This document shows positions 8,487 through 59,962 of a DNA stretch of 64,000 nucleotides, piece after piece. The notes beneath the pieces are model-generated. The model was not told the origin of the DNA, searched no databases, and was given only the letters and a program-made list of their open reading frames with translations. This stretch comes from an uncultured Prevotellaceae bacterium (GTDB lineage: Bacteria; Bacteroidota; Bacteroidia; Bacteroidales; Bacteroidaceae), in assembly GCA_947169115.1 (NCBI GenBank), contig CAMVOK010000007.1:1-64000 (forward strand). The letters are read 5' to 3'. A program made the translations under genes and the position numbers. The stretch's first letter is position 1, and the number at the start of each line of letters is the position of its first letter.

Positions 8487-8487
8487 T

Positions 8488-11457: not shown

Positions 11458-11459
11458 TT

Positions 11460-11991: not shown

Positions 11992-12030
11992 AGGGGCTTG
12001 TCGTTCTTACGGCAAGCCCCTCTTCGTTTT
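11992..12030 (+). terminator. trp attenuator terminator
   Basis: Stem AGGGGCTTGTCGT (11992-12004) pairs with ACGGCAAGCCCCT (12009-12021) around a TCTT loop, with one G-T wobble, followed by TCTTCGTTTT. It lies 72 bases after the leader-peptide stop and about 50 bases before trpB. Confidence 0.85.
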
Positions 12031-12078
12031 GCAAGGTTGAGAAACGAAAACGAAAAACGAAAACGAAAAGAATAAGAT

Positions 12079-13272
12079 ATGAGCAAATATCAAGTGGACG
12101 AGAATGGGTTTTACGGGGAGTTTGGCGGTGCCTATGTGCCGGAGATTCTCTACAAGTGTGTGCACGACTTGCAGGAGGCTTACCTGCCGATTGTGGAGTC
12201 GCAGGAGTTCCGAGAGGAGTATCGTGCCCTGCTGAAGGACTATGTGGGGCGACCCTCGCCGCTCTACTTTGCCCGACGCATGAGTGAACGCTACGGGTGC
12301 CAGTTGTTTCTGAAACGCGAGGACCTGAACCACACTGGGGCACACAAGATTAACAACACCATAGGACAGATTCTGCTGGCTCGCAGGATGGGCAAGAGCC
12401 GCATCATTGCCGAGACGGGTGCTGGGCAACACGGCGTAGCCACGGCTACAGTGTGTGCGCTGATGGGCATGAAGTGTGAGGTGTTTATGGGAGCCACGGA
12501 CGTGGAGCGGCAGCATACTAATGTGGAACGCATGAGAATGCTGGGATCCGAGGTGCACCCTGTGTACACGGGCAACATGACACTCTCCGATGCCTGTTCG
12601 GAGGCTATACGCGACTGGTGTTGCCATCCGCAGGATACGTTCTACATCGTGGGCTCCACCATGGGGCCGCACCCCTATCCCGATCTTGTGGCACGCATGC
12701 AGAGCATCATCAGCGAGGAGATTAAGTGGCAGCTGGTGGAGAAGACGGGACGCGACTATCCCGACTATCTTGTGGCCTGTATCGGCGGCGGCTCTAATGC
12801 TGCCGGAACCATCTACCACTACACGGACGACGAGCGCGTGAGTATAGTCTTGGCTGAGGCTGGCGGACACGGTTGGCAGACAGACCACACGGCGGCAACC
12901 ATACACCGCGGCACGACGGGTATTCTGCATGGGGCGAAGATGTTGGTGATGCAGGACGACGACGGGCAGATTATGGAGGCCTTCACCATTTCGGCCGGAC
13001 TGGACTATCCCGGAGTGGGACCGATGCATTGCAACATGGCCCAGAAGGGGCGCACGCAGGTGCTGAGCATTAACGACGACGAAGCCATACGTGCTGGTTA
13101 CGAGCTGACGCGCATGGAGGGCATCATCCCAGCCATAGAGTCGGCACATGCCGTGGCTGTCCTCCCGAAACTGACGTTCAAACCCTCCGACGTGGTGGTG
13201 CTGACCGTTAGTGGGCGCGGCGACAAGGACATAGAGACGTATTTGGCAGAGAGAGTAGAGAGTGAAGAGTGA
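12079..13272 (+). CDS. trpB: Tryptophan synthase beta chain
   Basis: PLP enzyme condensing indole with serine, the last step of tryptophan synthesis; forms an alpha2-beta2 complex with TrpA. K90 in HKINN is the Schiff-base lysine, GAGQHG the substrate loop and GGGSNA the PLP phosphate site. At 397 residues it is of normal length. The last few residues (ERVESEE) are encoded by an AGAGTGAAGA repeat that continues past the stop. First gene of the trpBEGDCFA operon, under the leader-peptide attenuator. Confidence 0.98.
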   Translation: MSKYQVDENGFYGEFGGAYVPEILYKCVHDLQEAYLPIVESQEFREEYRALLKDYVGRPSPLYFARRMSERYGCQLFLKREDLNHTGAHKINNTIGQILLARRMGKSRIIAETGAGQHGVATATVCALMGMKCEVFMGATDVERQHTNVERMRMLGSEVHPVYTGNMTLSDACSEAIRDWCCHPQDTFYIVGSTMGPHPYPDLVARMQSIISEEIKWQLVEKTGRDYPDYLVACIGGGSNAAGTIYHYTDDERVSIVLAEAGGHGWQTDHTAATIHRGTTGILHGAKMLVMQDDDGQIMEAFTISAGLDYPGVGPMHCNMAQKGRTQVLSINDDEAIRAGYELTRMEGIIPAIESAHAVAVLPKLTFKPSDVVVLTVSGRGDKDIETYLAERVESEE

Positions 13273-13306
13273 AGAATGAAGAGTGAAGAATAATATATAA
13301 TGTAGA

Positions 13307-14788
13307 ATGGATAATTCTTCATTTCCCAAAAGTATGACTAACATGAATACCAATAATTATTGCAAGGCTCCCCTTGATGGGGGAGAGGATGTGGGGTGGA
13401 ACTTTGCCACCCTCTCGAAGACCATTCTGGCCGATCTATATACCCCCGTCGGGGTGTACATGAGGTTGCGCGACCTTTATCCCTTCAGTGCGTTGATGGA
13501 GAGTTCCGACTACCACGATGCCAGCAATTCGCGCTCCTTCATCGGCATAAACCCCATGGCCAGTGTAGCCATCGGACACGGTAAGGCTACCATTGCCTTT
13601 CCCGACGGCACAACGCGAGAGCATGAGATTGGTGCGGACTACCAGTCAGACACGGCCATACACGAACTGACAGACCGCATCTGTGTGACGGGTGAGGATG
13701 CCTGCGAGTGCGGACTTTTCGGCTACACTTCGTTCAACGCCGTGCGCTATTTCGAGAACATCGATGTAAAGGACGAGACACAGGAGAAGAACGATGCTCC
13801 CGACCTGCTCTACATCCTCTACAAGGTGGTGATTGTTTTTGACCATCACAACAACAGACTGAAGGTGGTGACGCTGGGCAACGAACGTGACATCGACGAC
13901 ACCCTGAAAGCCATGAACAAGGCCAACGTGAAGGCTTATGACTTTCACCCTGTGGGCGAGGTCATGAGCACGCTGACTGACGAACAACACAAGGCCAACA
14001 TACGCAAGGGCATACAGCACTGTCTGCGCGGAGACGTCTTCCAGATTGTGCTCAGCCGACGCTTCGTGCAACGCTACGAGGGTGACGACTTCAAACTCTA
14101 TCGTGCCCTGCGAAGCATTAACCCCTCGCCCTACCTCTTCTACTTCGACTTTGGCGGATTCCGCATTTTCGGTTCTTCGCCGGAGACTCATTGCCGCATA
14201 GAAGGGGGAACTGTCAGGAGGGCTTACATAGACCCCATTGCCGGCACTACACGCCGAACGGGAGATGCTGAGGCTGACCGACGGGGTGCAGAGTTCCTGC
14301 GCAACGACCCGAAGGAGAATGCTGAACACGTCATGCTGGTGGACTTGGCCCGAAATGACCTGAGCCGAAACTGCCACAACGTGAGGGTGGACTTCTATAA
14401 GGACTTGCAGTACTACAGCCACGTCATCCATCTGGTGTCGCGCGTCAGTGGAGAACTGAACAGCGAAGCCGACCCCATCAAAACCTTCATCGACACCTTC
14501 CCTGCCGGCACGCTTTCCGGTGCTCCCAAGGTTCGCGCCATGCAACTCATCAGCCAATACGAGCCACACAACCGAGGGGCCTACGGAGGGTGCATCGGCA
14601 TCATCGGTCTCGACGGTTCGCTCAACCAGGCCATAACCATCCGCACCTTTGTCTCGCGTAACGGCGAACTGTGGTTCCAGGCCGGTGGTGGCATTGTGGC
14701 CAAGAGCAACGAGGAGTATGAGTTGCAGGAGGTGAACAACAAACTCGGTGCCCTGCGCCGCGCCATATTAATGGCAGAGAACATGTAA
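13307..14788 (+). CDS. trpE: Anthranilate synthase component I
   Basis: Converts chorismate to anthranilate with ammonia supplied by TrpG. The chorismate-binding core has DPIAGTTRRTG, DLARNDLSRN, TFPAGTLSGAPKVRAM and GGCIGIIGLDG. The N-terminal region with LMESSD corresponds to the Trp feedback-inhibition site. The N-terminus is uncertain: ATGs at 13307, 13334 and 13343 are in frame, and the residues before TLSKTILAD include KAPLDGGEDVG, encoded by a GC-rich palindromic repeat (13367-13399). Followed after 25 bp by trpG. Confidence 0.96.
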   Translation: MDNSSFPKSMTNMNTNNYCKAPLDGGEDVGWNFATLSKTILADLYTPVGVYMRLRDLYPFSALMESSDYHDASNSRSFIGINPMASVAIGHGKATIAFPDGTTREHEIGADYQSDTAIHELTDRICVTGEDACECGLFGYTSFNAVRYFENIDVKDETQEKNDAPDLLYILYKVVIVFDHHNNRLKVVTLGNERDIDDTLKAMNKANVKAYDFHPVGEVMSTLTDEQHKANIRKGIQHCLRGDVFQIVLSRRFVQRYEGDDFKLYRALRSINPSPYLFYFDFGGFRIFGSSPETHCRIEGGTVRRAYIDPIAGTTRRTGDAEADRRGAEFLRNDPKENAEHVMLVDLARNDLSRNCHNVRVDFYKDLQYYSHVIHLVSRVSGELNSEADPIKTFIDTFPAGTLSGAPKVRAMQLISQYEPHNRGAYGGCIGIIGLDGSLNQAITIRTFVSRNGELWFQAGGGIVAKSNEEYELQEVNNKLGALRRAILMAENM

Positions 14789-14813
14789 ATAAGAAAGAAA
14801 AGGAAATAGCGTT

Positions 14814-15395
<582 letters not shown>

Positions 15396-15463
15396 TTCAT
15401 GAATAATTAAAAATACTCATTCATTTCATACATATTGTATTATAGAAATTACGTAAAAAAACG

Positions 15464-16462
15464 ATGAAAGAGATATTAGCAAAACTCCTTAATCACGAGG
15501 AACTGACTCGCGAGGAGATGAAGTCGATTCTGGTAGGAATCACCCATAGCGAATACCCTAATGAGCAAATCACCGCCTTGCTCACTGCCCTGCAAATGCG
15601 TGGTGTCACCGTCGATGAACTCCTGGGCTTCCGCGACGGGGTGCTTGAAACGGGCGTGCCTGCCATACTGCAAGCCGAACGTTATATCGATGTCGTTGGC
15701 ACGGGTGGCGACCGGAAAAACACCTTCAACATCTCCACCACGGCCTGCTTTGTCATTGCCGGAGCTGGTTACAAGGTGGCCAAGCATGGTAACTACGCTG
15801 CCACCAGTGTCAGCGGAGCCTCGAATGTCATTCAGCACCACGGAATCAAGTTTACCGACGACATTGACCGACTCAACCGAAGTCTCGACGAGGCTGGCAT
15901 TGTCTATCTCCACGCTCAGCTTTTTGCCCGTGCCATGAAGTTTGTCGGCCCCATCCGTCGGGCTTTGCAGTTTCCTACCATCTTCAATCTCCTTGGGCCG
16001 CTTGTCAACCCCTCGCAGCCCCAGTGTCAGCTGCTGGGCGTGGCCAATCTCGACCAGATGCGACTCTACAACAGCGTCTATCAGCGGCTCGGCATCGACT
16101 ATGGCATAGTCAACTCTATTGATGGCTACGACGAAATATCACTGACGGGCGATTTCAAGGTGACAACGAACCACTACGAGCGTATCTTCCGTCCGCAGGA
16201 TCTTGGATTCGAGATTGCCAAACCAGAGGAAATCGTGGGAGGAGCCACCGAGGAGGAGGCTGCAGAAATCTTTGATGCTGTGCTGGAAAACCGTGCACTG
16301 CCTGCCCAGAAAAACATTGTGCTGGCCAACGCCGCGTTTGGTATTCAGGTGCTCGAACGCGGAGAAAAGGATATCGAGGAGTGCGTGGCCATTGCCCGCG
16401 AGAGCATCGACAGTGGGGCTGCCTTGCGCACCTTCAGGAAGTTTGTGGAACTGAATAGTTAA
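15464..16462 (+). CDS. trpD: Anthranilate phosphoribosyltransferase
   Basis: Transfers phosphoribose from PRPP to anthranilate. Family motifs: the PRPP loop GTGGDRKNTFNIST, KHGNYAATSVSG and FNLLGPLVNP. At 332 residues it is normal. Preceded by about 70 bp of A/T-rich spacer, the largest gap in the operon, with no clear promoter core. Confidence 0.97.
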   Translation: MKEILAKLLNHEELTREEMKSILVGITHSEYPNEQITALLTALQMRGVTVDELLGFRDGVLETGVPAILQAERYIDVVGTGGDRKNTFNISTTACFVIAGAGYKVAKHGNYAATSVSGASNVIQHHGIKFTDDIDRLNRSLDEAGIVYLHAQLFARAMKFVGPIRRALQFPTIFNLLGPLVNPSQPQCQLLGVANLDQMRLYNSVYQRLGIDYGIVNSIDGYDEISLTGDFKVTTNHYERIFRPQDLGFEIAKPEEIVGGATEEEAAEIFDAVLENRALPAQKNIVLANAAFGIQVLERGEKDIEECVAIARESIDSGAALRTFRKFVELNS

Positions 16463-16482
16463 CTCCTTTCTGCTCTCTTCCC

Positions 16483-17217
16483 ATGGATATTTTACAAGAA
16501 ATTATCGCCCACAAGCGCAGGGAACTGGAGGTTCTCTACGCCCCGAAACCCTCGCTGCGGATGGCACTGCTCAACAGTTCTACTGGCATTATTGCCGAAT
16601 TTAAGCGCCGTTCGCCCTCGAAGGGATGGATCAAGCAGGAGGGGCAACCCGAGGAAATCCCCCTCAGCTATCAACAAAATGGTGCTGCGGCTCTTTCCAT
16701 CCTTACCGACGAACACTATTTTGGAGGCAATGACGAGTTTGTGCGTATCGCACGCCGTTCGGGGGTCACGCTCCCTGTATTGTATAAGAATTTTGTGGTC
16801 GATGAGGCTCAACTCTATGCTGCTGCCCTTTGCGGAGCCTCTGCCGTATTGCTCATTGCTGCCTGTCTGACGAAGCTGCAATGTAAGACATTGATGGAGA
16901 AAGCTCATACTCTGGGGTTGGAGGTGCTGCTGGAGATGCACTCTGAAGAGGAACTGGAGTATGTTGACTTGCAACCAGACCTTTGCGGCATCAATAATCG
17001 CCACTTGGGTTCGTTCGTCACCGATGTCGAACATAGTTTCAGAATGGCCGAACTACTGCCTGCCGATGTGGTTAAGGTGAGTGAAAGCGGTATCGGCAAC
17101 CCTGCCACCGTCAGAGCTTTGCGCGAAAGTGGATTCCGTGGTTTCCTGATAGGTGAAAGTTTCATGAAAACGCCCCATCCAGGCAAAGCTTTGCACGATT
17201 TCATTGCTCAACTCTGA
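16483..17217 (+). CDS. trpC: Indole-3-glycerol-phosphate synthase
   Basis: TIM-barrel enzyme that closes the indole ring from CdRP. Typical N-terminus ILQEIIAHKRREL, then IIAEFKRRSPSKG with the catalytic Lys, GINNRHLGSF and the phosphate-binding SESGIGN. At 244 residues it is monofunctional; trpF is separate and 21 bp downstream. Confidence 0.97.
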   Translation: MDILQEIIAHKRRELEVLYAPKPSLRMALLNSSTGIIAEFKRRSPSKGWIKQEGQPEEIPLSYQQNGAAALSILTDEHYFGGNDEFVRIARRSGVTLPVLYKNFVVDEAQLYAAALCGASAVLLIAACLTKLQCKTLMEKAHTLGLEVLLEMHSEEELEYVDLQPDLCGINNRHLGSFVTDVEHSFRMAELLPADVVKVSESGIGNPATVRALRESGFRGFLIGESFMKTPHPGKALHDFIAQL

Positions 17218-17237
17218 CACAAAAAGACATAACCCAC

Positions 17238-17861
17238 ATGAACTCACATCTTCACAAACCCATCATCAAAGTTTGCGGAATGCGCGAGGCCGAAAACATT
17301 CGACAAGTCGAAGCTTTGGGCGTGGATATGATGGGCTTTATCTTCTGGTCGGGATCCAGTCGCTACGTCAGCAGTTTCCCCTCTTATCTCCCTGACTCGG
17401 CCTTGCGTGTTGGGGTGTTTGTTGACGAAGAGGTGGAGCGAGTCGTCAGTCTGGCCAAGACCTATGCTCTCGACTACATTCAGCTCCACGGCCACGAATC
17501 ACCAGACTATTGTGCCAGATTGAAAGACTATCGCCTTATCAAGGCTTTCAGCATTTCATCTCCATCCGATTTGGCCTCTGTTGCCGAATATGAGGATATG
17601 GTCGAACTCTTTCTCTTTGACACCAAGGGAAAATCAGTTGGGGGCAACGGTGAGAAGTTCGACTGGAATGTGCTGTCAGCCTACGAAGGCCGTGTCCCTT
17701 TCCTACTCAGCGGTGGCATAGCTCCCGATGATGTAAGCCAGATTCTGGCATTCCACCATCCCAAGTGTGTCGGTTTCGACCTCAATTCGCGATTCGAGGT
17801 GTCTCCTGCCCTTAAAGACATCGATAAACTTAATTTTTTTCTCCAATCCATCAGACAATGA
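17238..17861 (+). CDS. trpF: Phosphoribosylanthranilate isomerase
   Basis: TIM-barrel Amadori isomerase converting PRA to CdRP. KVCGMREAENI carries the catalytic Cys, VGVFVDE and QLHGHESPDYC follow, and LLSGGIAPDDV with GFDLNSRFEVSP form the phosphate site. At 207 residues it is normal. Its 3' end overlaps the trpA start by 4 bp. Confidence 0.97.
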   Translation: MNSHLHKPIIKVCGMREAENIRQVEALGVDMMGFIFWSGSSRYVSSFPSYLPDSALRVGVFVDEEVERVVSLAKTYALDYIQLHGHESPDYCARLKDYRLIKAFSISSPSDLASVAEYEDMVELFLFDTKGKSVGGNGEKFDWNVLSAYEGRVPFLLSGGIAPDDVSQILAFHHPKCVGFDLNSRFEVSPALKDIDKLNFFLQSIRQ

Positions 17862-18637
17862 ATAAAATCAATCAACTCTTTGCCTATCAAGGTCAGAAGA
17901 GTATCCTCTCACTCTACTTCTGTGCCGGGTGCCCCACGCTGGATGGCACGGCCAATGTCATTCTCACCCTCCAGCGGCGCGGCATCGACATGATAGAAGT
18001 AGGCATACCTTTTAGTGACCCCCTGGCCGATGGTCCCGTTATTCAAGATGCTGCTACCAAAGCCCTGAAAAACGGCATGACCCTCAGAACCCTTTTCAGT
18101 CAACTCCGTAACATTCGTTCGCAGGTTCACATCCCACTGCTGCTCATGGGCTATCTCAATCCCATCCTCCATTATGGCATCGAGGCTTTCTGCCAGTCGT
18201 GTGCCGAGGCTGGGATCAGCGGTGCCATAATTCCTGACCTGCCATTTGACGACTATCTCCGTATCGTCAAACCCATTGCCGACCGCTACGACCTCCGCAT
18301 CATCATGCTCATTACCCCAGAGACCAGCGAGGAACGTATTCGTTTCATCGATGAGCATACAGATGGCTTCATCTACATGGTTTCGTCGGCCTCCATCACG
18401 GGCGCCCAGCAAAACTTCAACGAACAGAAACAAGCCTATTTCCGCCGCATCCACCATATGAATCTACGCAATCCTCGCATGATAGGTTTTGGCATCAGCA
18501 ATGCTCAAACCCTTAGTGCTGCTCAAGACAATGCGGCAGGAGCCATAATCGGCTCTAAGTTTGTCAGCCTTCTCAACGAAAGCAATGGCGATGCTGAAAG
18601 GGCTCTCGACAATCTCTTTGAAGCTCTGCGTTCGTAG
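17858..18637 (+). CDS. trpA: Tryptophan synthase alpha chain
   Basis: Cleaves indole-3-glycerol phosphate to indole and channels it to TrpB. The catalytic Glu is in MIEVGIPFSDPLADGPVIQ and the Asp in IPDLPFDDY; GFGISNAQT is the phosphate-binding loop. At 259 residues it is complete. Last gene of the operon. No strong terminator is obvious in the following 140 bp, though a T-run lies just after the stop. Confidence 0.97.
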   Translation: MNKINQLFAYQGQKSILSLYFCAGCPTLDGTANVILTLQRRGIDMIEVGIPFSDPLADGPVIQDAATKALKNGMTLRTLFSQLRNIRSQVHIPLLLMGYLNPILHYGIEAFCQSCAEAGISGAIIPDLPFDDYLRIVKPIADRYDLRIIMLITPETSEERIRFIDEHTDGFIYMVSSASITGAQQNFNEQKQAYFRRIHHMNLRNPRMIGFGISNAQTLSAAQDNAAGAIIGSKFVSLLNESNGDAERALDNLFEALRS

Positions 18638-18741
18638 TCGTCAACAGGACTTGCCCCTTTTTTAGGACGCAAAAAGACAACGAAGCCCGGTTTTGTTGCC
18701 TTTTTGCCTCTCTGTATGTCGAGTGTATCAATTATTTTCTC

Positions 18742-18749
18742 TATCTTTG
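18742..18749 (+). promoter_or_regulatory. TATCTTTG promoter core for birA
   Basis: Matches TAnnTTTG, about 30 bases upstream of the birA ATG, giving birA transcription independent of the trp operon. Confidence 0.65.
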
Positions 18750-18780
18750 TGAGGTAAAAGAAAAAGAAAAGCAGCATTTC

Positions 18781-19587
18781 ATGACTGAAAAACACTTTTG
18801 CCTCGACGATAGTCCGTGGTTCCAGATGCTGGAATTGGACGAGGTGACAAGCACGAACGATTTCTTGTGTGGTTTCCGTCCCATGGGGGGAGAGAAGGAG
18901 ATGACACTGGTCACGGCCGAGTATCAGACAGCGGGTCGCGGAGCAGGAAGGAATCATTGGGAATCGCGCAGGGGCGAGAACCTGCTGTTCAGTCTGCTTG
19001 TTCATCCCCGGCACATCGGGGCGAATCGTATGTTTGTGCTCTCCGAGGTGTTGGCCTTGTCTATACGGGAAGCCCTCACCTCTTACCTCTTACCTCCTAC
19101 CTCCTACCTCCAAATAAAATGGCCGAATGACATTTATGTGGGTGACAAGAAAATATGTGGTATGCTCATCGAGAACGACCTTCGCGGCGGCTGCATTGAG
19201 AATTGTGTGATGGGGGTGGGCATCAATGTCAACCAAAGGGAGTTTTGTTTTGACCGCACGCAGACTGATGGCATACGACACTTTGCCGAACCTGTCTCGC
19301 TGGCGAATCTGCTGGGGCACGACGTGGAGCGGCGTTTTGTGCTTGAAAGTGTGATGGAACATTTTACTTGCTACTACGAATGGACTCGGCAAGGCAGACA
19401 AGATGAGCTGCACGAAATGTATCTTAGCCATCTCTATGGAAGAGGGGAGACGAGATGTTTCCGCGATGAGAAGGGTGATTTTGAGGGATGTATCACGGAT
19501 GTGGAACCCTCGGGTCACCTGATAATCACCGATGGAACAGGAGAAATCCGTAGATATGCTTTCAAGGAAGTGGAGTACATGATGTAA
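18781..19587 (+). CDS. birA: Biotin--[acetyl-CoA-carboxylase] ligase, monofunctional
   Basis: Attaches biotin to the carboxylase carrier protein. EVTSTNDFL, the biotinyl-AMP loop GRGAGRNHWES, QIKWPNDIYV and KICGMLIEN are present. There is no N-terminal DNA-binding domain, so it is not the repressor form. Between the helix SIREAL and IKWPND lies TSYLLPPTSYLQ, encoded by TTACCTCC iterations (19077-19112), which looks like an in-frame repeat insertion in a surface loop. Confidence 0.93.
   Translation: MTEKHFCLDDSPWFQMLELDEVTSTNDFLCGFRPMGGEKEMTLVTAEYQTAGRGAGRNHWESRRGENLLFSLLVHPRHIGANRMFVLSEVLALSIREALTSYLLPPTSYLQIKWPNDIYVGDKKICGMLIENDLRGGCIENCVMGVGINVNQREFCFDRTQTDGIRHFAEPVSLANLLGHDVERRFVLESVMEHFTCYYEWTRQGRQDELHEMYLSHLYGRGETRCFRDEKGDFEGCITDVEPSGHLIITDGTGEIRRYAFKEVEYMM
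19077..19112. repeat. TTACCTCC repeat inside birA
   Basis: About four imperfect 7-8 bp iterations of TTACCTC/CTACCTC. They encode SYLLPPTSYL without breaking the frame, at a place where the family normally passes straight from a helix into the KWPND strand. Confidence 0.65.
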
Positions 19588-19649
19588 TTATAAAAAAAAT
19601 AAAAATTTAAAATTTAAAATTTAAAAATCTAACAAATCAAAATAAAAGT

Positions 19650-20360
19650 ATGGCAAAGTTTAAGAGAATTCTGTTGAAACTCTCGGGTGAGAGTTTGCAG
19701 GGCGAACAGGGGTATGGTATTGACGTGAAGCGTCTGAACGAGTATGCCCAACAGATTAAGGAAGTGGCCGATATGGGGGTACAGATAGGTATCGTCATTG
19801 GCGGCGGAAACATTTTCCGTGGACTGACAGGTGCGGGCAAGGGTTTCGACCGTGTGCGTGGCGACCAGATGGGCATGTTGGCCACGGTTATTAACTCGTT
19901 AGGATTGTGCAGTGCCCTTCAGGCCATCGGACAGAAAACCACTGTGCTGACAGCCATCCGCATGGAGCCCATAGGGGAACTATATACGAAGTGGAAGGCC
20001 ATCGAGGCTATGGAGCGTGGCGAGGTGGTTATCATGAGTGGCGGAACGGGCAATCCGTATTTCACAACGGACACGGGTTCTTCATTGCGCGGCATTGAGA
20101 TTGAGGCCGACGTGATGCTGAAGGGTACACGTGTGGATGGTGTTTACACCGCCGACCCAGAGAAAGACCCCACGGCTACGAAGTTCTCGGAAATCACTTA
20201 CGACGAAATCTACAATCGTGGACTGAAGGTAATGGACTTGACGGCTACTACGATGTGCAAGATGAACGACCTACCCATCTATGTCTTTAATATGGATATT
20301 GTGGGTAACCTCAAGAAGGTAATGGAGGGCGAGGACATCGGTACGCTGGTCCACAACTGA
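19650..20360 (+). CDS. pyrH: UMP kinase
   Basis: Amino-acid-kinase-fold enzyme phosphorylating UMP to UDP. ILLKLSGESL, IVIGGGNIFRG, GDQMGMLATVIN and GGTGNPYFTTDT are diagnostic. At 236 residues it is complete. Preceded by an A/T repeat (AATTTAAA) with no clear promoter core. Its stop shares one base with the next ATG. Confidence 0.98.
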   Translation: MAKFKRILLKLSGESLQGEQGYGIDVKRLNEYAQQIKEVADMGVQIGIVIGGGNIFRGLTGAGKGFDRVRGDQMGMLATVINSLGLCSALQAIGQKTTVLTAIRMEPIGELYTKWKAIEAMERGEVVIMSGGTGNPYFTTDTGSSLRGIEIEADVMLKGTRVDGVYTADPEKDPTATKFSEITYDEIYNRGLKVMDLTATTMCKMNDLPIYVFNMDIVGNLKKVMEGEDIGTLVHN

Positions 20361-22348
20361 TGTTTGTCTGCCTCGAACAACGACTTTTAGGCCTGTGTAT
20401 GTGCATCCTGTGGAGTGTATGTACACAGGCCCAAATTCGTATGTCGTGGGCCGATTTTGTGGATGCCATTTCCGACGACGAATATGCCGAGCAACAGGGC
20501 TGGACGGAGAACATGGAGGAACTGGCCTTGCTGGCAGCTCATCCGATGGACATAAACACGGCTACCCGTGAGCAGTTGCGACAACTCCCTTTTCTCAGTG
20601 AGCAACAGATAGAAGACATCCACAAATATGTTTTCATCCATCGGGGAATGCGTTCGTTGAGTGAGTTAATGGCCATTCCATCGGTGGATTTCCGCACTCG
20701 TGAGTTTTTGTTAGTTTTTTTGACCGTAAATATTTGGCCATCTCAACAAAAAGACACGGTCACGGTGAAATACTTACTCCAACATGCCCGTCACGAGGTA
20801 AGCACACGCTTAGACATTCCCCTATACTATCGTCTGGGCTATTCTTACCCTTCCCATCAGGGAGGCTACCAAGGTTCGCCATGCTACAACAACATTCGTT
20901 ATAGACTGGAGAGTAAGAACCATTTGTCGGTAGGCGTGACCGCTGAAAAAGACCAGGGAGAGCCTTTTCGGAAGAATGGGGGATGGGACTCGTATGGGGG
21001 ATATCTGATGGTGCGAAACATCGGACATCTAAGCTCCGCTCTCGTTGGCGATTATAAATTGGGATTTGGCGAGGGACTTGTGATGAACACGGGTTTTGCT
21101 ACGGGAAAGACCATGCTGATGAAGCGTCCGTCGCAAGGAATACGTGCCAAACGGGGGATGGACGAAATTAATTATTTCCGTGGGGCAGCGGCTACCATAG
21201 GGTTTCGCCACATGGAGATGACGTCGTGGCTGTCGTTTCGGCCACTGGATGCTTCGCTCAACAGAGACGGAAGCGTGAAGACCTTGCAGACATCGGGACT
21301 GCATCGTACAGAGAAGGAACTCAGTCAAAAGGGGAACACCAATAGTCTGTTGGCCGGTGTCAACTTGTCGTGGAGAAACAAAGGTTTCCATGTGGGGGCA
21401 ACAGGCTATTTCCAGCGGTTTCATCGAGAACTTTCGCCTGGGACAGCCCTCTATCGGCGCATCTATCCTTGTGGGAAGAACTTTGGCCTTGCTGGGGTAA
21501 ACTATGGATATACTCACCTTTGGTTTGCTGTGTCGGGCGAGACGGCCTACAGTACCGAACGCGGTGGATGGGCCACGCTGAACCGTGTGTCGTGGAAAAT
21601 AAGTCCAAACTATGCCCTTAGTGGTTCTTATCGTTTCTATTCCTATAAGTATCACTCTTTCTATGCTTCGGCACTCAGTGAGAATAGCGATGTTCAGAAC
21701 GAGAGTGGTGGCACTCTGCGTTTGGATGCCACCCCTGTTGAGCATCTAACCCTGACAGGTTATTTCGACTATTTCTACAATCCATGGCCCCGATATACGC
21801 TCACGCATAGCAGTCAGGGGCAGGAGGTGGTCTTTATGGCAGAATATGCCATCCGTCGTAAGAACAGCATCTCTGTCCGCTACCAGTTGAAGCGCAAGGA
21901 GCGTAGTGACCGCATGCAACAACACAATCGCATTCGCCTGCAGTATAATCGGACACAAGGTATCGACTGGCAGTTGCAGTCGATACTGAATCTGCATTCG
22001 ATGGATGGCAGCGGACTGGGATATGCCTTGTCGCAACGTGTCCGATACCGACGGAATTGGTGGCAGACCTCGCTCATGCTCACTTACTTTCATACGACCG
22101 ACTACGACACACGCATATTCCTGTACGAGCCTTTGCTTACCAACATGTTTCGTTATCCTTCACTCTTCGGTCATGGGCTCCGATGGGTGCTTGCCGCTCA
22201 TTGTGAGTTTTGGCAGAAACGTTTGCTTGCAGAGTTGCTCTATGGTGCCACCCGCTATACTGACCGAAGGTCACAAGGCTCTGGAATGCAAGAGATACGT
22301 AGTCCTTGGAAACAGGACATTACCTTCCAATTGAGATTACGGATATGA
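20360..22348 (+). CDS. Helix-hairpin-helix domain envelope protein
   Basis: 662 residues. An N-terminal hydrophobic segment ending in TQAQ is a plausible signal peptide. A ComEA-like helix-hairpin-helix region follows (MDINTATREQLRQLPFLSEQQIEDI, shown in pieces, at about 60-85). The long remainder (about 120-662) is rich in alternating aromatic beta strands and ends in a strand (ITFQLRLRI), the pattern of an outer-membrane beta-barrel. This architecture is widespread in Bacteroidetes; the function is unknown and DNA binding is not implied, since HHH units also occur in secreted proteins. The start overlaps the pyrH stop by one base. Confidence 0.7.
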   Translation: MFVCLEQRLLGLCMCILWSVCTQAQIRMSWADFVDAISDDEYAEQQGWTENMEELALLAAHPMDINTATREQLRQLPFLSEQQIEDIHKYVFIHRGMRSLSELMAIPSVDFRTREFLLVFLTVNIWPSQQKDTVTVKYLLQHARHEVSTRLDIPLYYRLGYSYPSHQGGYQGSPCYNNIRYRLESKNHLSVGVTAEKDQGEPFRKNGGWDSYGGYLMVRNIGHLSSALVGDYKLGFGEGLVMNTGFATGKTMLMKRPSQGIRAKRGMDEINYFRGAAATIGFRHMEMTSWLSFRPLDASLNRDGSVKTLQTSGLHRTEKELSQKGNTNSLLAGVNLSWRNKGFHVGATGYFQRFHRELSPGTALYRRIYPCGKNFGLAGVNYGYTHLWFAVSGETAYSTERGGWATLNRVSWKISPNYALSGSYRFYSYKYHSFYASALSENSDVQNESGGTLRLDATPVEHLTLTGYFDYFYNPWPRYTLTHSSQGQEVVFMAEYAIRRKNSISVRYQLKRKERSDRMQQHNRIRLQYNRTQGIDWQLQSILNLHSMDGSGLGYALSQRVRYRRNWWQTSLMLTYFHTTDYDTRIFLYEPLLTNMFRYPSLFGHGLRWVLAAHCEFWQKRLLAELLYGATRYTDRRSQGSGMQEIRSPWKQDITFQLRLRI

Positions 22349-53748: not shown

Positions 53749-54222
53749 ATGGAACATAAGTACTTAACTTTTGTGCTGACCCTGCTCATGAGCATGGCAG
53801 CCAGTGTAGCTTCGGCTCACGACTTCGAAGTGGACGGAATTTATTACAGAATCACGTCCTCTACTTCTCCCTACACGGTTGCGGTAACCTATCGGGGTGA
53901 TTTTTGGTATTTCACTTACACAGGTAGTGTCATTATCCCAGAATCAGTTACGTACAACAGCACGACCTACAGTGTGACCAGCATCGGCCATAATGCTTTT
54001 AACGGATGCACAGGTCTGACCTCCGTCACTATCCCTAACAGCGTGACAGATATTGGCAGTTCTGTGTTCGGTGTATGTCTGTGTGATGTTCCCATTGTTT
54101 TCTATATATTGCTGTTAATTTCCGTTTATCGAACGCATAAGTCGCTTGTTCTTCTCCAGCAACTCTGTCAGTTTCTTGTCACGATTATACCTCACCAAAA
54201 TGGCTTTGAACTTGTTGCCTAA
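53749..54222 (+). pseudogene. BspA-like LRR surface protein, 5' half, interrupted
   Basis: Signal peptide MEHKYLTFVLTLLMSMAASVASA, an N-terminal beta domain (YYRITSSTSPYTVAV), then leucine-rich repeats of the Treponema/BspA type (GHNAFNGCTGLTSVTIPNSV, TDIGSSVFGVC). The repeat pattern stops at about 54078; the remaining codons to 54222 are the antisense 3' end of the KAP gene. The 3' half with matching repeats resumes at 58365. The gene is thus split by the insert. Confidence 0.85.
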
Positions 54223-55524
54223 AGAGTAGGGGATTTTCGTCGTGTCTATTCTTCCTAGAACTCCGAGCATTCGCATATAAGCCCGTTCAACACCATGCAT
54301 AATACAGAAGTAATACACGTTGTATCCCTCCTTTTCTGTTGGCTCAGTAAGTATCTTTGAGTCAATCAAATCAAATAACTCCTCCAAATCATTCGCGGAC
54401 ATTGCAGCAACCTCGTTCTTGCAGACGTTCTCCCTTACATTATCTGTTGAAGCATTGTAGGCGCGGTTGAATACACCCCTTACTCGTGTCGAAACAAGGG
54501 AGAGCCCGCTCATCTGCTCCACAATAATGTCACGTGACACCCAGAACAACTCCCTCATGTCAACTTCACTGAATTTTGGCGTTTCAGATACAAGTTTTAT
54601 CAAATCTGGATTATTCCAATCTTGATGTTTACCTAATTCCTTGCCTTTTCCATCAGCATAGTCTTCTATCACCCGTAACTCAGGCGGCGTGCTGAGATTA
54701 CTCATGACCCATGAATTGAGTTGCTTAAACTGTTCCACATGCTTTTGCTCTATCAGCATCAGTTTCAATAGGGCGAACTTGGATTTTATGTCCGTTATCC
54801 CAGACTGCTCCAACAGACTCGAACGCATCTCGTACGCATTCAAGAAACGTTTAATCAATCGAGGATTCCATTTCATTGAATTACCGATAATCGATGAAAA
54901 TCGGGTAACAAAGCCGATGGTCTCTCCCAATCCTGTAGGAATCTCACTTTTCAACAACGTTTGAATATTCGACCAGCCATAACAATCGAATTTATTATCC
55001 TTCGTAAATATAGCGAAATCCTCTCTTACTTTCTTGAAAAGCGTATTATCCAGTATTGATTGACAGAAAAGCAATGTGACGTATGTCTCCACCTCTTTCG
55101 GACTTAGAGATGGTATTTTGTATGGAACCTGGATAAACTTCTCCATGTATGAATCACCCAGTTGTGGTCGTTCCTCCGATGCAGCATTGATGATTTCTTT
55201 GTATTCACTTTTGATGGCGTTGGTAACAATGTAACTATCTGCAGCTATTACAAAAGCAGTCTTTGGCACATTAAGGAATAGTTTGATAGCTTCTAAGTTT
55301 TCAATGATGTGGTGAGGCAGACAGCGGTCAAGGTCATCTATCAAAACAACTATCTTCCCCTGCTTGCTTTTGTCTATCAAATCTTTAAAATCCTTTCTAA
55401 ACTCACGTACTACCTCATATTTTTTCTCTTCATCTTCCGCGTTAAGAGTATCCTTAAGGAATTGTTCTGCTTTATCTCCCGTGAGTAGTTCGCCTAAGTC
55501 AATCTTGAGGATCTTTAAAAGCAC
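54115..55524 (-). CDS. KAP family P-loop NTPase, C-terminal part (frameshifted)
   Basis: 469 residues from a GTG. Walker B IVVLIDDLDRCLP and the following AIKLFLNVPKTAFVIAADSYIV are diagnostic of KAP NTPases, which act at the membrane. The P-loop is in the preceding frame (55499-55990). The two frames overlap by 26 bases in a +1 relation around CTTTTAAAGATCC; a one-base change would give one chain of about 625 residues. The end (54115) lies in what would be the BspA-like frame on the other strand. KAP proteins are recurrent in phage-defence neighbourhoods; here it follows RloB by 27 bp. Confidence 0.75.
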   Translation of the reverse strand: MLLKILKIDLGELLTGDKAEQFLKDTLNAEDEEKKYEVVREFRKDFKDLIDKSKQGKIVVLIDDLDRCLPHHIIENLEAIKLFLNVPKTAFVIAADSYIVTNAIKSEYKEIINAASEERPQLGDSYMEKFIQVPYKIPSLSPKEVETYVTLLFCQSILDNTLFKKVREDFAIFTKDNKFDCYGWSNIQTLLKSEIPTGLGETIGFVTRFSSIIGNSMKWNPRLIKRFLNAYEMRSSLLEQSGITDIKSKFALLKLMLIEQKHVEQFKQLNSWVMSNLSTPPELRVIEDYADGKGKELGKHQDWNNPDLIKLVSETPKFSEVDMRELFWVSRDIIVEQMSGLSLVSTRVRGVFNRAYNASTDNVRENVCKNEVAAMSANDLEELFDLIDSKILTEPTEKEGYNVYYFCIMHGVERAYMRMLGVLGRIDTTKIPYSLGNKFKAILVRYNRDKKLTELLEKNKRLMRSINGN

Positions 55525-55990
55525 TTAAAAGCATGGGGATAATCAATGATGCTCCACCCGTTGTTGCTGCTGTTGCCACTGGAATAACAGTTTTGGCTGA
55601 GAATTTCAGCACACGCATCCAGCTGATGGACTTCTTAAGTTTAGCGAAGGCTTTTTTCAAAGCCTCGTATGTTTCAGTAGCTTTATCACCAACCTTTGCA
55701 AAGAAACGCTTATCTTTCTCCAAAGCATCAACAATGCCCTGAATTAGTGCCATCTTGGCATCGTCGAAACTCTCAAACGACCAACCGTCAAAATAAACCA
55801 CGACGGTATCATTATCATTTTTGAGTTCTTCTTCAAGAATTTTGAGGATACTTGTTTTTCCTGAACCCCAATCACCGTATAATCCAACAGTGATTGGAAG
55901 GTTCTTATCATTTGTCACCACGCTTTTCAATAATGATGCGTGAACAGTATACCCTAACAAATCTTCTGTTGTTTCTTTATCTGACCACAT
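55499..55990 (-). CDS. KAP family P-loop NTPase, N-terminal part (frameshifted)
   Basis: 163 residues with the KAP opening LLGYTVHASLLKSVV and Walker A GLYGDWGSGKTS (39-46 for GDWGSGKT). The hydrophobic stretch VIPVATAATTGGASLIIPML is the membrane insertion typical of KAP proteins. It stops with TGA soon after SAFKDPQD, before Walker B, so alone it could not form an ATPase. See the entry for 54115-55524. Confidence 0.75.
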   Translation of the reverse strand: MWSDKETTEDLLGYTVHASLLKSVVTNDKNLPITVGLYGDWGSGKTSILKILEEELKNDNDTVVVYFDGWSFESFDDAKMALIQGIVDALEKDKRFFAKVGDKATETYEALKKAFAKLKKSISWMRVLKFSAKTVIPVATAATTGGASLIIPMLLSAFKDPQD

Positions 55991-56017
55991 ATCAAATTAC
56001 TCTTTTCGATTATTCTT

Positions 56018-56710
56018 TTATTCTAACAAGCTCTCTGGATGCTCTAGTTCCTCTACCAGTTTATCTACCATCGTGCAAGGCTTATGCATCGCATAGTTGG
56101 TGCCAGTATGTAACGCTCGAAGCTGTTTTGCAAAGCGCTTTGCTAAGTCCTCACGACCATACTGCTGAAGTAAGCTGTATATATCGGGATTTCCTTTCCG
56201 ATACTTAAAGCCATCATCGCCCATCTTCTTGCGAAAGGCATCTTGCAATTTGTCAATGTAGGCCTCGCGACCAATGCCTGTGTCAAGATACTCAAAATGC
56301 AGATAGTACCAGAGTTCAAAGGCTTCATTCGTCCAGGCGCTTTGGAAACCCAACTTGTGGGCTTTCTTGATGGCATCGTTGAAGTCGTCAAAGTCATCCT
56401 TGTCAAAGACAACCCACACACGATCAAAAGACATGGCATTCTTTCGCTCCAGCTCCTGCTTTATTTCCAATGTTTTGTCAACCAAAGCTACCGTTGCACG
56501 GCCTTCTCCCTCTATTGTCACTTCGCGAACGGTTGAGATATAGTTTTTGATTAGAGCCTCAAAGTAGTGTGGCTCGGTCTTGGTGCCTTCACACACTATC
56601 AGGAAGCGCACCAGTTTTTCGCGAACGTTCTCCTTGCGCTTCTTAGAAGCCTTAGCTTCTCGGCGTTGCTGCCTCAGCTTTGCGATTTCTTCTTTTCTCG
56701 AATATCCCAT
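56018..56710 (-). CDS. rloB: RloB-family protein (AbiLii-like)
   Basis: 230 residues. After a basic helix (KLRQQRREAKASKKRK) comes a TOPRIM-like core: LIVCEGTKTEPHYF with the conserved Glu (E41), and VWVVFDKDDFDDF with the Asp-rich strand (about 97-109). SAWTNEAFELWYYLHF is the RloB signature. RloB is encoded with an AAA15 ATPase in the AbiL abortive-infection system of Lactococcus and in RloAB cassettes near restriction genes; a nuclease role is suggested by the fold but not shown here. Spacing is 9 bp to the ATPase and 27 bp to the KAP gene. Confidence 0.85.
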   Translation of the reverse strand: MGYSRKEEIAKLRQQRREAKASKKRKENVREKLVRFLIVCEGTKTEPHYFEALIKNYISTVREVTIEGEGRATVALVDKTLEIKQELERKNAMSFDRVWVVFDKDDFDDFNDAIKKAHKLGFQSAWTNEAFELWYYLHFEYLDTGIGREAYIDKLQDAFRKKMGDDGFKYRKGNPDIYSLLQQYGREDLAKRFAKQLRALHTGTNYAMHKPCTMVDKLVEELEHPESLLE

Positions 56711-56719
56711 TGCAATTCT

Positions 56720-57985
56720 CTATTTACCAATAAAAGGTATAGCACCATAACGTCCACGGATATAGTCGCGCTTGATATCACGGTCATTGCGGACTTTCTT
56801 CCCGTCTTCATCCTTGAATTCCACAAGCGAATAGATGTCGGTAGACTCCACCTTGTCCTTCTCTGCAAACCAAATCTGGTCACGACGAACAATGTCCAAA
56901 TCAAGCAGATTGGTGTCGTGGGTAGCGAAGATAAGCTGTGCTCCATGCTTGTTCTTCTTTGGATCCATAAACAGAAGCACAATATTGCGAGTAAGAAGCG
57001 GGTGTAGTTTTGCATCCAGTTCATCCACAATGAGTGTCTTGCCCTCGTTCAATGTATCGAAAATAGGCCCGGAAATTTCTATCACTTTCTTTGTTCCCTC
57101 AGACTCCATCTGGTTCTTGTGGAAATTACGCTCACCAATCACAAGTCCATTCTCATCATAGACATTATGAGTAGTTATTGGTTCGACGAAACTACCCGTG
57201 GCTATGTCTTTTTCCAATTGTGACCTTATCGACTTGGGGGCACTTTCCAAGGCTTCTTTGGGAATATCAACCTTCTTGACCGAAAAACGGGTAAAGCCCA
57301 GTTGCAGGGTCTTGAAGAACTCCTGAGCCTGGTCTGCTCCATTCAAATGTTCCAAAAACATTCTGAGCGTAAAGGCTTCATAACCTTCGCTGTCAATTCC
57401 CGAAAGCACATTGCATTCGCCAAACCAACCTAATATGGAATTGGACTTCTCGCCCTTCAGCTGAGCCACAAGCGACAGGAAGAGACGATTTGAATTAGTC
57501 AAATTTTCTTTTCCCAGACCTTCAGGGAATCTTTTCGCTGACACTTCAATCGTGTCTCGCGAGCGCATGAAGAGTTCATACTCTTTTTCGCCAAACGGCT
57601 TCTCATATAGCCACTCAGAAATGATGTCGGTTTTGTTATATTCAAAACCATAGCGATAAAGCACCTTACCTTTTATAAATTGTATCTCAAACAACGTAGG
57701 TTGCGAGTCAGAGTTTTCATCCAATGCAAAAGGATCGTAAGGTAGTGCATCACCCTCATTCAAACGCACAGAACGTCTGACCATGCTTCGCATAGTAGAT
57801 ATGGCCTGAATGAAATTACTCTTGCCACCAGAGTTTGCACCATAAAAAACTGCCAAAGGAAGCAAACTATACTTACCCTCACTGATTACAGACCCTTTGT
57901 GCTCTTTTATTGAACTCGCCTCCATACTAAAAGTACGTTCCAGTTTGAAAGAGCGATAATTTTTGACTGTGAAATTTACTAGCAT
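56720..57985 (-). CDS. AAA15-family ATPase (RloA/AbiLi-like)
   Basis: SMC/ABC-like ATPase of 421 residues with the N-terminal MLVNFTVKNYRSFK typical of the AAA15/AAA_21 group. Walker A GANSGGKSN (49-57), signature SEGTKKVIEI, Walker B TLIVDELDAKLHP and the H-loop FATHDTNLLD are intact. Paired with RloB it matches the AbiL/RloAB layout, where the ATPase is thought to sense infection and the RloB partner to act. Promoter core TATCTTTG on the minus strand (58010-58003) starts the operon. Confidence 0.87.
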   Translation of the reverse strand: MLVNFTVKNYRSFKLERTFSMEASSIKEHKGSVISEGKYSLLPLAVFYGANSGGKSNFIQAISTMRSMVRRSVRLNEGDALPYDPFALDENSDSQPTLFEIQFIKGKVLYRYGFEYNKTDIISEWLYEKPFGEKEYELFMRSRDTIEVSAKRFPEGLGKENLTNSNRLFLSLVAQLKGEKSNSILGWFGECNVLSGIDSEGYEAFTLRMFLEHLNGADQAQEFFKTLQLGFTRFSVKKVDIPKEALESAPKSIRSQLEKDIATGSFVEPITTHNVYDENGLVIGERNFHKNQMESEGTKKVIEISGPIFDTLNEGKTLIVDELDAKLHPLLTRNIVLLFMDPKKNKHGAQLIFATHDTNLLDLDIVRRDQIWFAEKDKVESTDIYSLVEFKDEDGKKVRNDRDIKRDYIRGRYGAIPFIGK

Positions 57986-58364
57986 ATCTCAAGATTTTTG
58001 TGCAAAGATACAATTAATTTTCGATAAAAACTGTAAAATACGAGAAAAAATCTCAAAAATCAAGCGCAATTAACATTGTTTCGGCTTTAAAAGGATTGTA
58101 AATGCGAAAATATCTCGTTTTTTAACTTGATTGAGTTCTTTTTGTGGGGTATACATCTTATTGGGATATGACATTTAATTACAAAACAAATTTGAGTATT
58201 CAAGATAGCATCTTCCATAGTTGCACATTCACACCTCTTTTGGTTTATAAAAGTTAAAAACGTTAATAATACATCTTTTAAGAATCCTCAAGAATCCGCG
58301 ACATCACTTTTCTACCTTTTAACCCATAAGTACTTGTTACAAAACAACTTGCAAATACGCTAAT
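57986..58364. other. AT-rich spacer at the right end of the insert
   Basis: Contains only the operon promoter. No coding frame, no tRNA, no clear inverted repeat. It is conspicuously AT-rich and probably foreign. Confidence 0.5.
58003..58010 (-). promoter_or_regulatory. TATCTTTG promoter core of the AAA15-RloB-KAP operon
   Basis: Minus-strand match to TAnnTTTG, 17 bases before the ATPase ATG, giving a 5' UTR of about ten bases. Confidence 0.65.
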
Positions 58365-59273
58365 TGCAGTAGTCTAACCTCCATCGCCATTCCCAACAGC
58401 GTGACAAGTATTAGCAGTTATTTGTTCTCTTATTGCAGTGGTCTAACTTCCATAGACATCCCCAACAGCGTGACAAGTATCGGAGAGAGTGCGTTCCAGT
58501 TTTGTCGTGGTCTGACCTCCGTCACCATCTCCAACAGCGTGACAAGTATCGGCAATTATGCGTTCCATGGTTGCAGTAGCCTGACCTCCGTCACCATCCC
58601 CAACAGCGTGACAAGCATCGGTAGTCAAGCGTTCATGGACTGCAGTAGTTTAGAGACAATTGTTGTAAACAGTGGTAACACGGTCTATGATTCTCGCGAA
58701 GGATGTAATGCCATTATTGAGACGGCTTCCAATACATTGATTGCAGGATGCAGGAATACAATAATCCCCAACAGCGTGACAAGCATCGGTAGTTCTGCGT
58801 TCGATCGCTGTGGTTGTCCGACCTCCGTCACCATCCCCAACAGTGTAACAAGCATCGGACAATCTGCATTCTATAACTGCAGCGGTCTGACCTCTGTCTC
58901 CATCCCCAACAGCGTGACAAGTATTGGAAATAATGCGTTTTATGAATGTAGTGCTCTGACCGATGTGTATTGTTTTGCTACGGATGTACCAAAAGCACAA
59001 TACAGTACTTTCTATTTGACTTCTATAAAATTGGCCACGCTCCATGTTCCAGCCTCTTCCCTCGAAGCCTATCGTACAACAAATCCTTGGAGCGAATTCG
59101 GCACTATCGTGGCCTTGACGGACGAAGAAGTGGGAGTGAAGACAATTGATAATGCACAATTGATAATTAATAATGTCTATGACCTGCAAGGTCGCCACCA
59201 GACAAGGAAGCAGAAGGGCATCAACATCATCCGAATGAACGATGGCACCACAAAAAAGGTGCTGGTTAAGTAA
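58365..59273 (+). pseudogene. BspA-like LRR surface protein, 3' half
   Basis: From the Cys codon at 58365 the frame gives LRR units of about 23 residues (CSSLTSIAIPNSVTSIS, CSGLTSIDIPNSVTSIG and four to five more, with one irregular unit CSSLETIVVNSGNTVYD), then the usual closing VYCFATDVPKAQ and LHVPASSLEAYRTT, and a C-terminal VYDLQGRHQTRKQKGIN plus basic tail. It lacks its own signal peptide and a convincing start. With 53749-54078 it forms one interrupted gene of about 413 codons. DNAQLIINN before the tail is encoded by an A/T repeat (59142-59176). Confidence 0.85.
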
Positions 59274-59365: not shown

Positions 59366-59588
59366 TCTCCAGCCATTTAGATGAATTGCTTGACCCGTTG
59401 TGACAGTTCAATTGAACCGTCGCCACGGTTCAAGCCATGCTTGAACAACCCTCAGACAAGTATTCTATAGCTTCTATCCCTTGGTTCAGGCAATCAAAGC
59501 ATAATGGTTGCCCAATCAAAAGGTGTTGGTTGCAGCAATCAAGTCATGATGATTACCCCAATCAAAAGGTGTTGGTTGTAGCAATCAA
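59366..59588. repeat. Dispersed intergenic element, copy 2
   Basis: Inverted relative of 11460-11607. In addition, CCCAATCAAAAGGTGTTGGTTG plus AGCAATCAA-type units repeat with a 46-bp period (59511-59542, 59557-59588). Its last bases overlap the 3' end of the DUF559 gene. Confidence 0.6.
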
Positions 59589-59962
59589 AGAATATTTCTG
59601 CTGTCTGCAAACTTAAGTATCTCTTGAATGATTCCCTCTACATTCTGCCAAACAAGAATATTTTCGAAGCGGAGAACATGGATGCCGTTTCCGTTTAAGT
59701 ACCGTGTTCGGGTTTCGTCATGCAGATGTTCGCCATAATGGTTGTGTACTTCCCCATCGAGTTCGATGCAGAGTTGTAAGGCAGGGCAATAAAAATCCAA
59801 GATGTATGGACCAATACCATGTTGCCGGCGAAACTTGTATCCTCCAACTTGGCTTCCTTTGAGATAACGCCAGAGTACAGCCTCGGCCGAGGTCGCGTGG
59901 TTGCGTAGGTCTCTTCGTTGGTCTTTTTGAGTTGTAGGGTTTGATTTCGCAGTTTTGTACAT
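59585..59962 (-). CDS. DUF559 endonuclease-domain protein
   Basis: 125 residues, Vsr-like PD-(D/E)XK fold. LRNHATSAEAVLWRYLKG, GYKFRRQHGIGPYILDFYCP (Asp of the core), LCIELDGEVHNH (Glu-Leu-Asp-Gly) and HVLRFEN are the conserved blocks of DUF559. These proteins are common beside mobile DNA and restriction genes, but their function is unproven. No adjacent methyltransferase. Confidence 0.85.
   Translation of the reverse strand: MYKTAKSNPTTQKDQRRDLRNHATSAEAVLWRYLKGSQVGGYKFRRQHGIGPYILDFYCPALQLCIELDGEVHNHYGEHLHDETRTRYLNGNGIHVLRFENILVWQNVEGIIQEILKFADSRNIL

Follow-up and report, generated by a model that had tools for sequence, protein, structure and literature searches.

A BspA-like leucine-rich repeat (LRR) gene in the 64,000-nucleotide stretch analyzed here (contig CAMVOK010000007.1 of the uncultured Prevotellaceae bacterium assembly GCA_947169115.1; hereafter the window) is split by a low-GC block of 4,286 bp at 54079-58364. 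The block carries an AbiL-type gene pair and a split KAP/QatA gene, and a 117-bp sequence, END, that recurs beside other LRR genes lies at its right boundary. The block is likely, with a probability of about 0.85, to derive from a Tn4555-family integrative mobilizable element targeting BspA-like LRR genes and to be non-autonomous; it would be a derivative because END and cargo are present, whereas the opposite end of the element family, LEFT, and the integrase are absent. The new part is the combination of codon-precise LRR targeting with defence cargo.

Read at base level, the 5' half of the LRR gene stays in frame from 53749 to TTC (54067-54069), GGTGTA and TGT (54076-54078) and then runs out of repeat, and on the 3' side of the block the LRR repeats restart at the TGC at 58365. 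A sequence-only reading of this stretch, made earlier, had placed a cut after a Cys codon and a resumption at 58365, and both hold to the base. The block is also AT-richer as that reading had said, with a GC content of 0.410 against 0.502 in the remaining window and a minimum of 0.466 among 103 equal-size windows elsewhere. Two separate ancestral LRR genes, the other history it had considered, are argued against by a 5' half without a gene end, a 3' half without a start codon and a junction that is recurrent and site-specific. By the open reading frame (ORF) list and Pfam, the block encodes the AbiL pair and the split QatA, its remaining frames being short or antisense, and no transposase, integrase or mobilization gene is among its ORFs. 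The earlier remark that no transposase or integrase explains the arrival of the block is right about its contents, but not about its right boundary, which is a recurrent mobile-element end, a fact not visible from a single window.

Conserved ends at a fixed codon position

When the same genome was searched with the boundary DNA, related stretches turned up next to further LRR genes and in one case next to a helicase-like gene, each with different neighbours; five copies align over 117 bp with zero gaps. A sequence model of END (R1) found six copies in this genome, the sixth at a contig start, and matched 71 of 139 genus genomes as well as 47 of 150 genomes of a broader set (46 of the genus, including the window's own, and 1 of another family). 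The exact END pattern occurred in at least 117 stretches in named genomes, nearly all of them metagenome bins. Among the matches listed, 114 had Bacteroidota names, 2 were contigs of one metagenome-assembled genome (MAG) labelled Pseudobutyrivibrio, and 1 came from an unnamed bacterium. The exact pattern was found in no viral contigs, END in no plasmids, and phage records gave 1 weak match. An END-like stretch (E 1.7e-11) lies at 3130-3227 of locus L423 (MT836633.1), an unverified human-gut 'Bacteriophage sp.' record whose ORFs look chromosomal by eye.

The position of END relative to its target was scored on 71 strong ENDs, i.e. distinct copies above 45 bits in fetched loci, a subset of all genus ENDs found; ENDs with fewer than 25 bases outside were dropped. 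LRR sequence lies directly outside in 50 of the 71, in one frame in 46 of these, and 46 of the 50 have TG at +7/+8 (END-N6-TG). TG is also retained in 14 of the 21 strong ENDs without LRR, and with 15 weaker ENDs included the counts are 57/86 for LRR and 71/86 for TG. A second set was drawn from the named collection by taking 80 of the at least 117 pattern loci and counting the 69 previously unseen ENDs. It gave LRR in 48, LRR together with TG in 45 and TG overall in 57; no other position among the first 39 offsets has TG in more than 26. The junction is codon-precise, with a fixed END-to-target spacing. The non-MAG-titled END records among the matches listed, Prevotella sp. P5-92 and P5-50, both keep TG. 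By eye, the window's END (58242-58358) has a quasi-palindrome close to the tip, with two inverted motifs lying deeper inside, and two END sequence classes conserve the inverted repeat despite changed letters, perhaps as protein-binding sites.

The opposite end was recognized at six integrase loci with a common left junction, LRR-TTY-N6-TGTATTTAG; LEFT, in the form LRR-TTY-N6-TGTATTTAGA, precedes a helix-turn-helix (HTH) gene and a tyrosine integrase gene. A LEFT model (R2) matched 54 of the 139 genus genomes. An LRR on the same strand lies upstream of 34 of the 39 distinct LEFT ends and in 33 of these stops within 12 bp; position -9 is T in 37 ends, position -8 is T in 34 and position -7 is C or T in 37. 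All nine LEFT ends with at least 2.7 kb of inner sequence encode both integrase and HTH gene, the latter upstream. LEFT and END occur together in 42 genomes (Fisher 3.9e-7, relatedness ignored). The integrases have the Pfam domains Arm-DNA-bind_5, Phage_int_SAM_5 and Phage_integrase, and the residues R, H, R, H and Y, which we take to be the active site, are invariant in 8 of 8 aligned sequences.

Two contigs, G008:C6 and G198:C16 (JAFYYV010000028.1), hold LEFT, integrase and END within LRR genes, with Zorya or AbiE-like cargo. The G008:C6 element (2055-21456) has ZorD, ZorB and ZorA matches between its ends, and the order runs from the LRR 3' part through END, a weakly Argonaute-type gene, ZorD, ZorB, ZorA, a relaxase, the integrase, the HTH gene and LEFT to an LRR 5' half with a start codon; the relaxase (PF03432, 3.5e-8) comes from a mobilization-gene scan of this element. 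G198:C16 has one LRR gene with two insertions. The first holds an AbiL-type ATPase and END and is followed by 0.6 kb of LRR repeats; the second (1932-31536) opens with LEFT, HTH gene and integrase and ends 29.6 kb on with AbiE-like genes adjoining END, after which LRR resumes. The AbiE-like genes were named by likeness to PADLOC-scanned genes of locus L049. Separately, two genomes share two ENDs in direct orientation, spaced 6.5-6.8 kb, that flank an LRR fragment (L054:1941-8600, L180:1774-8703), an arrangement that reads as a nested or tandem insertion.

Relation to Tn4555 and a proposed course of integration

The closest comparison is CP103138.1, a 10-kb circular Bacteroides fragilis record with cfxA. 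Its integrase is 66.8% identical over 96% to that of the Prevotella elements, its HTH protein 62% and its excisionase-like protein 59%, and END-like (E 0.01) and LEFT-like (E 3.7e-15) sequences are adjacent on the circle. Five weaker ENDs resemble the Tn4555-like END by eye; those of L095, L096 and L105 join or adjoin LRR, and those of L094 and L104 do not. Tn4555 itself carries cfxA, has a site preference via a 207-bp direct repeat, and loses this preference when tnpA, which lies upstream of the integrase gene, is missing, according to the passages available from PMC5704250. The Prevotella elements share this layout of a tyrosine integrase with a targeting gene upstream, the targeting role being that reported for Tn4555 tnpA in the same passages. 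Full elements have an integrase of the same lineage, a targeting-type gene upstream of it and a mobilization gene (the last in G008:C6), whereas the window block lacks integrase, LEFT and mobilization gene and is classed as a derivative. Unlike Tn4555, the Prevotella elements often carry anti-phage systems, not cfxA, have a codon-precise LRR target genus-wide, and leave many END copies with no integrase in sight. MTnPi1-3 of Prevotella intermedia and NBU1 are also tyrosine-recombinase elements of Bacteroidales, but the former have tandem integrases and AT-rich sites (TTAC N5 AA for MTnPi1, TTGC N5 AA for MTnPi2) and the latter targets a tRNA gene; the available passages on them mention no LRR target (PMC5704250, PMC4755523). 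An open-access literature search found no paper on LRR-gene targeting by such elements.

Several other origins of the ends were tried. An attC/integron site was rejected for END, as no R'/R'' pair was seen by eye. The core of CTnDOT-type elements is GTAnnTTTGC; its letters are similar, but the spacing differs, and it was rejected. Xer hijacking was considered, since the only long integrase of the window's genome looks Xer-like, but a dedicated linked integrase was found elsewhere. A Crp-like gene as left boundary was inconsistent and was dropped.

In the course that we propose, the tyrosine integrase of a full element would be steered by the TnpA-like HTH protein encoded just upstream and would recombine the END-N6-LEFT site of a circle with TTY-N6-TGC, the F-x-x-C codons of an LRR repeat. 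One product junction would read LRR-TTY-N6-TGT...LEFT and the opposite one END-N6-TGC-LRR. The six coupling bases would need no match, mismatched coupling bases being a trait of Tn916- and Tn4555-type elements. We infer that the linked integrase makes these junctions and that the HTH protein chooses the LRR. The window copy would have retained END and cargo and shed LEFT, the integrase and the mobilization genes, its left end probably having gone either by integrase-mediated use of a pseudo-site or by deletion. Its cargo, AbiL, may be functional here, with an ATPase sensor and an RloB Toprim-like nuclease as in the abortive-infection pair described in the available passages of PMC10440598 and PMC12409363. 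The END-N6-LEFT circle joint was sought for the Prevotella elements and none was seen; each of the 35 attP-like pattern matches is a viral locus in which neither END nor LEFT appears at E <= 1, and they were taken as chance.

A different arrival, which we find possible but rather doubtful, is that END alone suffices and that circles of END and arbitrary defence genes are moved in trans into LRR genes by a Tn4555-like integrase, so that BspA genes would be used in an integron-like manner. END genomes do outnumber LEFT genomes (71 vs 54 of 139), the window's own genome has 6 END and 2 LEFT, and the window's left junction also lies at the TTY-N6-TG position without LEFT. Two findings point the same way: one LRR gene of G198:C16 holds two insertions, and G012:C12 has a pair of ENDs in direct orientation separated by 6.5 kb. 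However, the window is the only clean two-sided case without LEFT, the left side of L101 being imprecise and L183 and L193 giving no clear case, and a deletion in a full element, or integrase recombination at a pseudo-site, would yield an identical picture. The likeness to integrons, in which defence genes each with a recombination end at times stand in series, is loose; unlike integrons, the elements encode an integrase that carries an arm-binding domain and resembles those of Tn4555-like elements, and they use a surface-protein gene as platform. Arrival by an unrelated transposon, or through recombination of homologous LRR genes with one another, is highly improbable: LRR genes are numerous and repetitive, and at many END loci the LRR 5' half was not found nearby, making rearrangement likely there, yet a 117-bp END that is conserved and stands at a constant codon distance, with TG kept at most targets lacking a detected LRR, points to site-specific recombination, and the window's two flanks show no obvious target-site duplication by eye.

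Several points weigh against the derivation of the block from a Tn4555-like element. The integration model is wholly comparative, with no integration event observed, and CP103138.1, inferred to be Tn4555-like from cfxA and gene content, stands in for Tn4555 in the comparison. The window's own left end is non-canonical. No LRR was detected outside END in 21 of 71 and 21 of 69 cases, nor at the END examined in each of P5-92 and P5-50. Where 600 bp or more of inner sequence follow END, LRR was detected inside in only 7 of 134 cases (6 on the same strand), so that the left boundary is in view at few loci; some contigs end just inside END (e.g. G165:C4, G197:C10, G064:C43 and G019:C31). No integrase of the element family was found in the window's genome at E <= 1e-40. 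Its two LEFT ends, in LRR genes on contigs C18 and C27, are near contig ends and the contigs stop before the integrase, therefore a helper integrase may be present though unassembled. A two-piece integrase-like stretch of distant likeness (tblastn 1.2e-17) lies on contig C3 of this genome (L348:3637-4343), possibly a decayed relative.

The AbiL pair and the split KAP gene

The window pair is an AbiLi-type ATPase followed by AbiLii/RloB (PADLOC; Table 1), which is the gene content of AbiL and bears out the earlier assignment of AAA15 plus RloB to this system. The AAA_15 Pfam match of the ATPase is below the model cut-off, and an AAA_21 match is also present. AbiL resembles PARIS AriAB, each being two genes for an ABC ATPase and an RloB/Toprim-type nuclease in the available passages of PMC10440598 and PMC12409363. 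For the window ATPase, the AbiLi match (3.7e-95) is far ahead of that to AriA (2e-30, PADLOC).

The sequence-only reading had further joined the pair and KAP into one three-component anti-phage system with KAP as a membrane effector or sensor, which we regard as very unlikely. All three families are defence-associated, and the genes are tightly spaced on a single strand as it had noted (gaps of 9 bp between AAA15 and RloB and 27 bp between RloB and KAP), but KAP is not one intact gene. It is split across two frames overlapping at 55499-55524, which by eye hold the Walker A half and the Walker B half. The best PADLOC model for KAP is QatA. Six other KAP relatives found in 393 order genomes (E <= 1e-20) are single ORFs of 596-626 aa adjoining QatB or QatC genes, with PADLOC QatB next door in 4 of 6 and QatC two genes on in 2 of 6 (L381, L382), and the fetched flanks of all six gave no AAA15 or RloB match.

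The predicted recurrence of KAP beside AAA15-RloB was likewise not found in the 139 genus genomes and 393 order genomes sampled. In the genus, RloB occurs in 29 and KAP in 10 genomes (E <= 1e-8); comparing the two position lists, the pair is adjacent in the window only (1/139), the nearest other pair being 28 kb apart (G084:C33). AbiL also stands beside END without KAP: in L313, AAA15-RloB adjoins END at 83% DNA identity, and the match ends at the RloB 3' end with other genes next. L199, where no END was seen, likewise has a window match that stops at the RloB 3' end before other genes. Loci L256 and L336 have the order END-AAA15-RloB at 85-86% DNA identity on contigs cut inside RloB, with the next gene unseen, and L240 has a partial AAA15-RloB match beside END at 77%. 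More distant AAA15-RloB pairs beside END (L010, L059, L175) gave no KAP match in the fetched stretch.

The block has no qatB, qatC or qatD, so that QatA-like parts only of the QatABCD gene set are present, and the QatB-QatC complex is the minimal requirement for defence in the available passages of PMC13279940. The left junction lies 36 bp beyond the KAP stop, where the next qat gene would begin. The window KAP is best read as a broken leftover of a qat operon, and what had been proposed as a trio is more plausibly the known two-gene AbiL system with this putative leftover next to it. Island neighbours can be unrelated leftovers, not parts of one system.

Table 1. Features of the split LRR gene and the inserted block (window positions).
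Feature	Position	Strand	Evidence or remark
5' half of BspA-like LRR gene, putative signal peptide (by eye) and first repeats	53749..54069	+	ORF 53749-54222; LRR_5 3.5e-9; LRR homology to 54078
Final codon of 5' half, TTC of F-x-x-C repeat position	54067-54069	+	
Left junction, GGTGTA and TGT	54070..54078	+	spacing as in canonical LEFT junctions, without the subsequent ATTTAGA
Inserted block, read as probable non-autonomous derivative of LRR-targeting Tn4555-like element	54079..58364	.	GC 0.41
KAP/QatA C-terminal part, own frame	54115..55524	-	KAP_NTPase 1.5e-29; QatA 1.4e-59
KAP/QatA N-terminal part, different frame	55499..55990	-	KAP_NTPase 1.1e-18; QatA 5.8e-32
RloB (AbiLii), candidate Toprim/OLD-related nuclease	56018..56710	-	RloB 9.8e-44; AbiLii 1.4e-27
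AAA15/AAA_21 ABC-type ATPase (AbiLi)	56720..57985	-	AAA_21 3.9e-32; AbiLi 3.7e-95
END, 117 bp, conserved at the right of elements of the family; its terminal core is TTGCAAATAC	58242..58358	+	gap-free alignment of 5 own-genome copies
Six variable bases GCTAAT (coupling-type sequence), END to target TGC	58359..58364	+	
3' part of LRR gene, from TGC of the identical repeat position	58365..59273	+	ORF 58401-59273; LRR_5 3.8e-53

The sequence-only reading had suggested looking in close relatives for an uninterrupted LRR gene. Both flanking genes were visible in 2 of the 19 relative loci compared, the other 17 having no peptidase match in the fetched stretch. In these two (G156 and G069), the S46 peptidase and phosphoesterase genes lie about 300 bp apart with no BspA match between them; the whole BspA gene thus seems to be lineage-specific, and the comparison included no intact ortholog. 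A gene that looks DUF559-like follows the LRR gene at 59585-59962, and it too has no match between the flanking genes of the two relatives.

Defence cargo beside END

At 39 of the 71 strong ENDs, each with at least 1.5 kb of inner sequence, we scanned the inner ORF closest to END among those of 150 aa or more. PADLOC matched 21 of these 39 against 1 of 20 control window ORFs (Fisher 1.7e-4, relatedness ignored, several of the 39 loci being near-duplicates). The cut-offs were 1e-10 for 30 of the 39, 1e-15 for 8 and 0.01 for the window's own; 10 control ORFs (one antisense) were scanned at 1e-15 and 10 at 1e-10, and the one match among them is a DEAD helicase of housekeeping type. Of the 21 matches, two (L067, L053) are weak and to Argonaute-type models, leaving 19 of 39 without them. 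A separate scan of 30 proteins, largely hand-picked as defence-like and so biased, matched 16 at 1e-15. The systems among the scanned inner genes include AbiL, AbiE, AbiD, Zorya, bSEFIR, a DRT-type DUF1848 gene, methyltransferases and PARIS-like genes. In addition, 6 of 36 RloB matches share a contig with an END no more than 4.2 kb away, five being on its inner side, against a uniform expectation of about 0.12 within 5 kb (computed with 131 ENDs; the listed total of 127 hardly alters it).

These elements are a sequence-defined vehicle that can carry AbiL, AbiE, AbiD, Zorya, SEFIR and restriction-type genes from genome to genome within a large gut lineage, and they tie the spread of defence genes to the disruption of surface-protein genes. 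We tentatively propose, at somewhat less than even odds, that the BspA-like LRR genes of rumen Prevotella-type bacteria may serve as an integron-like landing array for anti-phage genes, in which a TnpA-like protein would recognize the DNA of LRR repeats, a Tn4555-type integrase would place defence cargo at a fixed codon, and END-only cassettes, the present AbiL unit among them, would be moved in trans. If so, the 207-bp Tn4555 target would itself be LRR DNA (207 = 3 x 69 bp, the LRR unit length). What target the Tn4555 targeting gene recognizes, an old question, becomes directly testable, and END provides a handle for finding cargo whose defence role is yet unassigned.

Genes with SLFN/AlbA_2 ATP-binding domains recur inside END (L103:2765-4138, L053:2792-4165, L061:6395-7879; Pfam assignment from L103 and L061 only), and further ones were recognized by look (L054:5542-6924, L180:5642-7015, L190:2-1294). 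In PADLOC the L053 gene matched an Argonaute-type model weakly, and the genes of L103 and L061 matched nothing; they are candidates for unrecognised defence genes. A sugar-kinase-like gene (by eye) of about 300 aa recurs in END loci with varied neighbours (L048:3313-4206, L091:3740-4654, L184:4714-5607, L345:16964-17860). The window's own genome has a DUF1848 gene next to END (L103:901-1827; PADLOC 2.4e-49), of a type associated with reverse transcriptases that act in defence.

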